DNA of 64,000 nucleotides from an uncultured Pelagibacteraceae bacterium (GTDB lineage Bacteria; Pseudomonadota; Alphaproteobacteria; Pelagibacterales; Pelagibacteraceae). The notes below the pieces were generated by a model. That model had not been told where the DNA came from. It ran no database searches and saw nothing but the letters and a program-made list of their open reading frames with translations. Of the stretch, positions 43,539 through 46,075 are shown piece by piece. The position numbers were made by a program, and so were the translations under genes. How positions within the stretch are numbered: position 1 is the first letter of the stretch; every line of letters starts with the position of its first letter. The stretch lies in the NCBI GenBank assembly GCA_902527215.1, contig CABZOF010000002.1, forward strand, positions 186,001 to 250,000, read 5' to 3'.

Positions 43539-44311
43539 TGAAATCTGATATTTTAAAAATTGCAAATAGGAAGTTTAAATCTAGACTCATTGTTGGAACT
43601 GGAAAATACAAAAATCTTAAAGAATGTGCAGAGGCTATTAAAATTTCAGGTGCTGAAATTGTTACAGTTGCGGTAAGAAGAGTTAACATATCAGATAAAT
43701 CTAAACCTTTACTTATGGATTATGTTGATCCAAAAAAAATAATGTATTTGCCAAATACAGCAGGTTGCTTTACTTCAAAGGATGCCCTAAGAACATTAAG
43801 ACTTGCTAGGGAAATTGGAGGCTGGAAAATAGTTAAATTAGAGGTTTTAGGAGATAAAAAAAACTTATTTCCAGATATGATTGAGACATTAAAATCTACA
43901 GAAGTTTTAACAAAAGAAGGTTTTAATGTAATGGTTTATTGTAATGATGATCCACTTATGTGTAAGAGGTTAGAAAATTCTGGAGCTTCAGCTATTATGC
44001 CACTAGCAGCTCCAATCGGGTCAGGCTTAGGAATTCAAAACAAAACAAATATTAAAATTTTAAGACATCAAACAAAAGTTCCTTTGATTATTGATGCTGG
44101 AATTGGAAAGGCATCTGATGCAGTTGAAGCTATGGAAATGGGATGTGATGCAGTATTAATTAATACAGCAATTGCAAAAGCCAGAAATCCTTTTCAAATG
44201 GCTGACTCAATGAAATACGCAGTTATATCAGGAAGAAAATCCTTTCTATCAGGAAGCATAACACCTATTCTCCAAGGATCACCCTCATCTCCAAAAAAAG
44301 GACTAATTTGA
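43538..44311 (+). CDS. thiG: Thiazole synthase ThiG
   Basis: A 257-residue TIM-barrel enzyme that forms the thiamin thiazole phosphate from DXP, ThiS thiocarboxylate and dehydroglycine. Conserved segments are RLIVGTGKYKN, VTVAVRRVN, LPNTAGCFT, KLEVLGD (Lys of the Schiff base) and GSGLGIQNK, DAGIGKASDA. It overlaps rne at the 3' end by nine bases. With thiS it forms a two-gene thiamin unit. Confidence 0.95.
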   Translation: MKSDILKIANRKFKSRLIVGTGKYKNLKECAEAIKISGAEIVTVAVRRVNISDKSKPLLMDYVDPKKIMYLPNTAGCFTSKDALRTLRLAREIGGWKIVKLEVLGDKKNLFPDMIETLKSTEVLTKEGFNVMVYCNDDPLMCKRLENSGASAIMPLAAPIGSGLGIQNKTNIKILRHQTKVPLIIDAGIGKASDAVEAMEMGCDAVLINTAIAKARNPFQMADSMKYAVISGRKSFLSGSITPILQGSPSSPKKGLI

Positions 44312-46075
44312 ATTCTTTTTACTAAAATTTTTTCTCTTTTTAAATTTTTTTCTTTTAAAATTTGATTTTTTTTCTTTATTCGATTCTTTATTTTTATCAA
44401 TCGTTTCACTCTCTATTTTCTGCAAAGTTTCAATTTTTTCAATTTTATCTAATACTTTTGATAGTTTTGATTTAAATTCTATTTTGTAATCTTGTAGACC
44501 TAGTTCTGCGCCAACAGTGAGATTAATCTTAATCTTATTCTTCTTTTTAAAATAATTTAAATCCTCTAAAAAATAATTTTCTATAAAATTAAGTATTTTT
44601 TCATTAACATTGACTTCTACTACTTTAGCATTTGTTTCGAATGTCTTAATTTCAATTAATTTAATTATCTTTAAAGCTAAAGTTTCATTAGTTAATTTAA
44701 TTGACCATTTAATATTACTTTCCCTTAATCTTTGTCTAGACATCTCAAGTAATCCAAAATTGCTTATTCTTCCTATTTGAATTCTTGCTCTATCATTTCT
44801 ACACCTCTCCTTTAATCTCCTTTCAACTTGTTTACGATTGTTAAAGCTAAGCATGTCTATGAAATCTATTATTATTAGACCAGATAAATCTCTAATCTTT
44901 ATTTGCCTTGCTATTTCCTCAGCTGCTTCTAGATTAGTATCTAGCGCGGTACTTTCAACGTTCTTCTGCTTAATAGATTTGCCTGAATTGATATCAATTG
45001 ACACTAATGCTTCTGTTGGGTTTATTACAAGATAACCCCCAGAGCTAAGTTTTACCTCTGACTTAAAAATTTCAAAAAGTTTTTTTTCAATATCTTCTTT
45101 AAAAAATAGTGGTATTTTTTCTCTAAATTTTTTTACTTTTTTCAGTTGTTTGGGCATCATAAGTTTCATGTAGTTTTTTGCTTTTTGATATCCCTCAGTA
45201 CCTTCTACAATAATATTTTGAGTTTCATCATCATACATGTCTCTTATACTTCTTTTTATAATATCACTTTCTTGATGAATTAAAGAGGGAGCAATTGAAT
45301 TTAAGGCATTATCTTTTATTGAATTCCAAGCTGTAATTAAGTTTTTAAGATCACCGTCTATTTCATTTTTTGTTTTATTTGAACCAGCAGTTCTTACTAT
45401 AACACCCATCTCTTTCGGAATTTCTATTTCATTTAAAATTTTTCTTATTTTTTTTCTGTCACCGGGGTTGAATATTTTTCTTGAAATACCACCCCCTTTT
45501 GCGGTGTTGGGCATTAAAACTATGTATTTTCCTGCAATACTTATAAATGTACTAAGTGCTGCTCCTTTAAAACCTCTTTCATCTTTAAGCACCTGAACCA
45601 ATATGACTTGATTTGGTTTTATTACCTCTTGAATTTTGTATCTTTTAGATGGAAATTTTTTTTCATTTTTTATTTTTTCTTTAGTTTCGTCTTCTAATTT
45701 TTCAACTGGATCACTTAATTTGATCTCTTCGTTACCTTCTAAAATTTGATTTTCATTATTTTCACTTTCTTTTGACAGTTCTTCTCTAACTTTTTCTTCT
45801 TCCTCTTTTATTTTATCTAAATCTGATTGTGGAAGTTGATAGTAATCAGATTGAATATCATTAAATGATAAAAAACCATGCCTTTCTCTTCCAAAATCAA
45901 CGAATGCAGCTTGCAAAGAAGGCTCTATTCTACTTACTTTGCCTAAATAAATGTTATTTTTTATTAATGTGTTGTTTACACTCTCATACTCATAATCTTC
46001 GATATGATTATCTTTTTTGAGAACAACTCTTGTTTCATTTGGATGCGATGCATCAATGTATAAATTTTTTGACAT
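44303..46075 (-). CDS. rne: Ribonuclease E/G, short form
   Basis: A 590-residue endoribonuclease. The S1 domain (about residues 35-185) is interrupted by an acidic, glutamate-rich insert (about 85-145), as in alphaproteobacterial RNase E. The catalytic DNase I-like part has LIIIDFIDM with the metal-binding Asp pair. After LLEMSRQRLRES the usual CPxCxG zinc-link that joins protomers is missing, the sequence running straight into NIKWSIKLTNE (about 44700-44745). The C-terminus is only a short basic tail, so no long degradosome scaffold exists. It handles rRNA processing and mRNA decay. Confidence 0.9.
   Translation of the reverse strand: MSKNLYIDASHPNETRVVLKKDNHIEDYEYESVNNTLIKNNIYLGKVSRIEPSLQAAFVDFGRERHGFLSFNDIQSDYYQLPQSDLDKIKEEEEKVREELSKESENNENQILEGNEEIKLSDPVEKLEDETKEKIKNEKKFPSKRYKIQEVIKPNQVILVQVLKDERGFKGAALSTFISIAGKYIVLMPNTAKGGGISRKIFNPGDRKKIRKILNEIEIPKEMGVIVRTAGSNKTKNEIDGDLKNLITAWNSIKDNALNSIAPSLIHQESDIIKRSIRDMYDDETQNIIVEGTEGYQKAKNYMKLMMPKQLKKVKKFREKIPLFFKEDIEKKLFEIFKSEVKLSSGGYLVINPTEALVSIDINSGKSIKQKNVESTALDTNLEAAEEIARQIKIRDLSGLIIIDFIDMLSFNNRKQVERRLKERCRNDRARIQIGRISNFGLLEMSRQRLRESNIKWSIKLTNETLALKIIKLIEIKTFETNAKVVEVNVNEKILNFIENYFLEDLNYFKKKNKIKINLTVGAELGLQDYKIEFKSKLSKVLDKIEKIETLQKIESETIDKNKESNKEKKSNFKRKKFKKRKNFSKKNSN

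Follow-up and report, generated by a model that had tools for sequence, protein, structure and literature searches.

An rne gene in the window

The window, a stretch of 64,000 nucleotides from an uncultured member of the Pelagibacteraceae (SAR11), carries on its reverse strand an rne gene (44303..46075) that encodes an RNase E of 590 amino acids. The protein scores 462.7 bits against TIGR00757 (cut-off, 325.95) and 316.5 bits against PF10150 (cut-off, 25.5), and reaches 393.2 bits, below the cut-off of 908, against NF008074, the NCBI equivalog for full-length RNase E of the E. coli type, a model whose 1068 positions amount to twice the length of the SAR11 protein. Its nearest named relatives among the matches listed belong to uncultured Pelagibacteraceae and share at most 91% identity with it. 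A profile search of the genome to which the window belongs (92.7% complete) found rne as the only PF10150 match, and a relative rated 100% complete (G001) likewise holds one PF10150 gene, so that no second copy is there to take over; the SAR11 enzyme is probably essential. Across the SAR11 order, the gene was found in 104 of the 117 genomes searched, and in 75 of the 76 of good quality. Gene order around rne is stable: of 34 named SAR11 loci, some of them cut by contig ends, 33 have a penicillin-binding-protein gene (which we take to be mrcA) next to it and 32 have thiG there. In the window, rne and thiG converge, with a nine-base overlap at their ends (44303-44311).

As in E. coli RNase E (structures 2bx2, 2c0b and 2vmk), the SAR11 protein comprises S1, 5'-sensor, RNase H-like, DNase I-like and small domains and possesses the catalytic and 5'-sensor residues. 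Counterparts of E. coli F57, F67, R169, T170, D303, N305 and D346 are present in 82-83 of 83 SAR11 loci, the misses being gaps; the catalytic residues D361, N363 and D404 and the 5'-monophosphate sensor residues R228 and T229 (R169 and T170 in E. coli) occur in all 83, where N363 is the counterpart of the catalytic asparagine that we take to be N305 in E. coli numbering. By alignment, D361 (44993..44995, reverse strand) corresponds to catalytic D303 and D404 (44864..44866, reverse strand) to catalytic D346, residue numbers that are given in the available text of PMC9841416. Caulobacter crescentus RNase E is alphaproteobacterial, as is the SAR11 protein, whose residues 1-271 align with the Caulobacter S1/5'-sensor structure (4oxp). 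Within the stretch matched by 4oxp lies an acidic insertion in the S1/5'-sensor part (residues 83-142; window 45650-45829) that is unaligned in E. coli; in the AlphaFold2 model, residues 83-112 are predicted to form a helix and residues 115-142 are loose.

The zinc link is missing

Zinc-linked members of the RNase E/G family carry CPxCxGxG between the large and the small domain, and the window protein has no such motif at this place. Its reverse-strand open reading frame (46075..44303) reads GLLEMSRQRLRES-NIKWSIKLTNE, that is, MSRQRLRES is directly followed by NIKWSIKLTNE, and window 44743-44684 is without a cysteine codon. Aligned with E. coli RNase E (2bx2), the protein shows one in-frame gap of 11 residues between the two domains that takes in CPRC. 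HMMER places this gap over HHVCPRCSGTG of the E. coli sequence and MAFFT over CPxCxGxGxxR, about three residues further on; this leaves an uncertainty of about three residues at its edges, and both zinc cysteines are missing under either placement. What stands there instead is a remodelled link of residues 451-463 (RESNIKWSIKLTN; 44687..44725, reverse strand) that lacks the CPxCxGxG loop. Given that the accessible part of PMC2631609 assigns residues 1-400 of E. coli RNase E to the large domain, 415-510 to the small domain and 401-414 to the zinc-coordinating region, the missing stretch corresponds to nearly the whole zinc link. A displaced CPxCxG motif is ruled out, as the window protein has a single cysteine in its entire length (C425); six of the 83 SAR11 RNase E open frames, a few of which are cut by contig ends, have none. 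The window protein belongs to the RNase E/G family and falls outside its zinc-linked type.

The small domain is followed by a short lysine-rich tail (residues 548-590; 44306..44434, reverse strand; from translation and model) that ends in KKNSN and, in this protein of 590 amino acids, offers neither a long C-terminal degradosome scaffold nor the motif GWW. Compared with E. coli RNase E, the SAR11 protein lacks CPxCxGxG and the degradosome scaffold and is 11 residues shorter between the large and the small domain. C. crescentus RNase E has a CPHC zinc link, GWW and a long disordered C terminus, none of which is found in the SAR11 family of the window. A preliminary description of this DNA had claimed that the zinc-link cysteines after MSRQR and the C-terminal scaffold are absent, and both claims are borne out, the first by translation of the open reading frame and alignment with E. 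coli, the second by the mere 43 lysine-rich residues after the small domain. It had also raised the possibility that assembly or metal use differs from the E. coli model, of which our data support the part on metal: with no CxxC on which to build a shared zinc site, and no scaffold, the enzyme should not use metal in the way that E. coli RNase E does.

Distribution across alphaproteobacteria

When SAR11 is compared with other alphaproteobacteria over this segment, as proposed in the preliminary description, CxxC is found in 0 of 84 SAR11 loci versus 132 of 134 other genomes. The 84 are those that reach the segment among 86 SAR11 loci read (L001-L065, L068 and L112-L131), which span two families and ten genera (f1, with g1-g6, and f2, with g7-g10). 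L001 and L002 represent one gene, and named and unnamed SAR11 records may in some cases come from the same genome; of the 81 distinct SAR11 frames in the CxxC count, two end before the segment. Rows L068 and L131 (short of the segment) and L087 (masked or frameshifted) were dropped. For the wider class, in which the best PF10150 match of each genome was read, PF10150 was matched in 139 of 142 genomes sampled (two of them SAR11) and not matched in three. This leaves 137 non-SAR11 genomes, of which 134 are readable once G127 and G161 (each yielding only a distant paralogue) and G152 (RNase E truncated ahead of the segment) are set aside; CxxC is present in 132 of them (84 + 47 + 1 over three readings), with two exceptions. 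Among the best 80 matches, a set chosen by similarity to the window protein, 44 of 45 non-SAR11 loci have CxxC and the last is unreadable. Loss of the zinc link characterises the SAR11 order, in both families sampled.

The same counts bear on another explanation, a sequencing or assembly error, to which we give practically no credence. Every one of the 84 SAR11 loci that extend into the segment shows the same in-frame loss, single-contig genomes included, which rules out a sequencing indel for SAR11; an error finds no support in this order and is possible for one genome outside it, G233, whose RNase E contains ambiguous letters.

In the available text of PMC12510024, CxxC is called well conserved across alphaproteobacteria, and that of PMC9841416 lists C404 and C407 as conserved in RNase E as well as in RNase G. 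A literature search that covered few subscription papers found no report of the loss of the zinc link in SAR11, and the accessible portions of PMC4435900, PMC6538622, PMC10783494, PMC12510024, PMC2631609, PMC9841416, PMC10412687 and PMC5436854 make no mention of it. The short C terminus of Pelagibacterales RNase E is already published: according to the part of PMC5436854 that is available, RNase E is remarkably short in Rickettsiales and Pelagibacterales, with at most 720 amino acids.

C-terminal motif and small domain

In Caulobacter, the C-terminal GWW docks PNPase (available text of PMC10412687). Within SAR11, all nine family f2 proteins whose end is intact (L122-L130) have this motif, and the 76 other SAR11 loci (L001-L065, L068 and L112-L121; a few cut by contig ends) all lack it; these 76 were assigned to f1 from their handles or, where the record is named, from sequence identity. 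PNPase itself was found in 39 of 40 SAR11 genomes, despite the absence of GWW outside f2. Given that loss of the zinc link is common to both families and loss of GWW is not, the zinc link was, on this pattern, lost first.

The small domain (residues 464-547; 44435..44686, reverse strand) is kept but divergent. It scores 24.8 bits against PF20833, just below the cut-off of 26.8 (the profile is matched by 44 of the 46 sequences in alignment A1, which come from SAR11 and other groups), and it is folded in the AlphaFold2 model, with pLDDT blocks of 70-89. With domain borders set by the analyst, it is also the most variable folded part of the protein in SAR11, at a mean entropy of 1.73 bits versus 0.49 bits for the DNase I part. 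Both this variability and the PF20833 score, together with the short C terminus and the loss of the PNPase-docking GWW in the window's SAR11 family, are consistent with an enzyme that acts as a large-domain dimer only, that is, one in which the tetramer was given up and the zinc link and scaffold were shed in genome reduction, leaving the small domains unorganised. We nevertheless regard such a dimer as rather doubtful, given that the small domain is still present and folded in the model and that a useless tether would not need the two invariant residues, W457 and L461, that the remodelled link contains.

Two fixed residues in the remodelled link

W457 (44705..44707, reverse strand), which aligns to E. 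coli S399 (a number counted from C404), is present in 83 of 83 SAR11 loci and in 0 of 84 other alphaproteobacteria, and L461 (44693..44695, reverse strand) is present in 83 of 83 SAR11 loci and in 2.4% of the same 84. These 83 loci represent 79 distinct proteins. The codon for W457 is TGG in all 83, and L461 is encoded by six synonymous codons, which suggests that selection acts on the amino acid. When fixed is taken as at least 95% of the 79 distinct SAR11 proteins and rare as less than 5% of the 84 other alphaproteobacteria, only five positions are fixed in SAR11 and otherwise rare (48, 183, 457, 461 and 469), two of them inside the 13-residue link and one more at residue 469. The chance that at least two of five positions fall in the link is about 0.005, a figure that is indicative only, as the region was picked after seeing the alignment and the sequences are related. 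The gap is therefore not a bare excision: the flanking residues changed and became fixed (W457 and L461).

Window RNase E was modelled as an AlphaFold2 monomer on alignment A1, which is shallow (46 rows), with a mean pLDDT of 80.2 and a pTM of 0.71; the large domain of the model fits 2bx2 with an rmsd of 2.8 over 384 residues (Z 39.6). Residues 453-461 have a pLDDT below 50, and the link is unplaced. A CxxC control modelled on a 31-row alignment (L069, from Accumulibacter) has no run of pLDDT below 50 at the zinc link and forms a short helix and strands there. Relative to the crystals, the small domain is misplaced in both monomer models, the CxxC control included: the rmsd of the control was 15.6 over 470 residues of 2bx2, and that of the window model was 14.8 over 443 residues of 2c0b and, with Foldseek, 15.1 over 552 columns of 2bx2. 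As both monomers misplace the small domain, the models are uninformative on assembly, and domain placement from them was dropped, the control being equally wrong against the crystals.

An invariant aromatic residue within a stretch that is loose in the monomer model suggests that it touches something beyond its own chain, and we infer that SAR11 subunits may contact each other through W457 and L461. Two points speak against this: the invariance could reflect intrachain packing or RNA contact, and where a segment is lineage-specific, its low pLDDT can stem from a lack of data. Tryptophan is a common contact of RNA, which would suit a reading in which the W457/L461 pair serves RNA binding or intrachain packing and the link has no role in assembly. 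The groove between the small and RNase H domains, which is a reported RNA interaction site in E. coli (available text of PMC9841416), points the same way. However, the alignment puts W457 at the very end of the large domain, next to where the shared zinc used to be bound, and this residue is unplaced in the monomer model, and we consider a role in RNA binding or packing unlikely.

Proposed model for the SAR11 enzyme

On balance, we lean towards the view that this is the ordinary, single RNase E of SAR11, predicted to be active, from which the zinc loop was deleted in frame and in which a remodelled link does without metal. The deletion of the zinc-link loop would date back to an ancestor of the order. 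The dimer of large domains (DNase I), which carries the active sites, would have been kept by its own hydrophobic interface; for E. coli, the accessible part of PMC2631609 describes the self-interfaces of both the DNase I and the small domains as hydrophobic, with little change between the apo and holo forms. The small domain would then be tethered directly, by few residues instead of about fourteen, and W457 and L461 may take over the role of the shared zinc through a contact without metal, which most likely spans the dimer. That an invariant Trp/Leu contact between subunits replaced the shared zinc in SAR11 RNase E is a possibility that we put forward tentatively.

In E. coli, mutation or deletion of the motif prevents tetramers and substantially lowers activity (available text of PMC2631609), and in Caulobacter the C461A/C464A exchange raises the half-life of ctrA mRNA from 0.67 to 3.14 min (available text of PMC12510024). 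Given that the motif mutants of both species are impaired, the loss in SAR11 may simply have cost activity; SAR11 would have had to compensate for it, or would tolerate a slower enzyme.

If the Trp/Leu contact is real, one of the most abundant bacterial groups of the oceans would have a zinc-independent RNase E, the assembly of which would be independent of metal supply and thiol oxidation. An abundant order with one RNase E that lacks the zinc link provides a natural experiment on the role of zinc, and the fixed Trp/Leu pair offers a concrete idea, accessible to mutation, of how a metal bridge might be replaced. Caution is also warranted, in that assembly or zinc demand of the E. coli type should not be assumed for RNA decay in SAR11.

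Zinc use in SAR11

The site might also have been lost to spare zinc, which is scarce in the surface ocean, in which case SAR11 would replace zinc proteins generally. This could agree with the small assemblies of two other lineages without CxxC (0.8 and 1.2 Mb; 71 and 80% complete) and with ribosomal protein L31, which is without CxxC in nine of nine readable SAR11 loci (12 fetched; read by regular expression, all nine from family f1). As Cys-free L31 is usual in alphaproteobacteria, however, SAR11 L31 says little on zinc sparing. DnaJ, which has the same CxxCxGxG type of motif, is retained in SAR11, with a match in 40 of 40 genomes and 3-4 motifs kept in 12 of 12 loci read, and we hold zinc sparing to be very improbable. 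General avoidance of zinc is not supported, the DnaJ motifs being kept, although two zinc families (DnaJ and L31) make for a weak test.

Other lineages and paralogues without CxxC

As in SAR11, CxxC is absent from RNase E in the order of G139, alphaproteobacteria with assemblies of 0.6-1.1 Mb (five of five sequences, L164 and L224-L227, from five of six genomes searched). In this order the loop has its normal length and the cysteines are substituted (GIISGIRC), whereas the SAR11 loop is deleted; the order is also without the W/L pair of SAR11 and has a different place in the tree. A possible in-frame deletion of the zinc link, of about 14 residues, is seen in one further genome, G233 (L177 / L222), which is alone in its order and has an RNase E with ambiguous letters. 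The G233 protein keeps the C-terminal GWW.

A FastTree phylogeny of 123 RNase E sequences, for which the link was removed before tree building, places the 29 SAR11 tips in one clade (support 0.97) beside a CxxC sequence (0.84), the order of G139 with a CxxC sequence (0.76) and G233 in a different part of the tree, next to a further CxxC sequence (0.66). Support is low at some of the deeper nodes (0.27 at one of them), and AT-rich long branches are a risk. On the simplest reading of these sequences, the cases of the G139 order and of G233 look like losses separate from that in SAR11.

In addition, CxxC is absent at the corresponding place in the two PF10150 paralogues read (L300 and L302, from G127 and G161), which are distant from the SAR11 protein (115.6 and 53.0 bits); one of their frames ends soon after the motif position and the other continues for ~80 residues. 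Second PF10150 copies may be common, as many genomes of the class have two or more matches.
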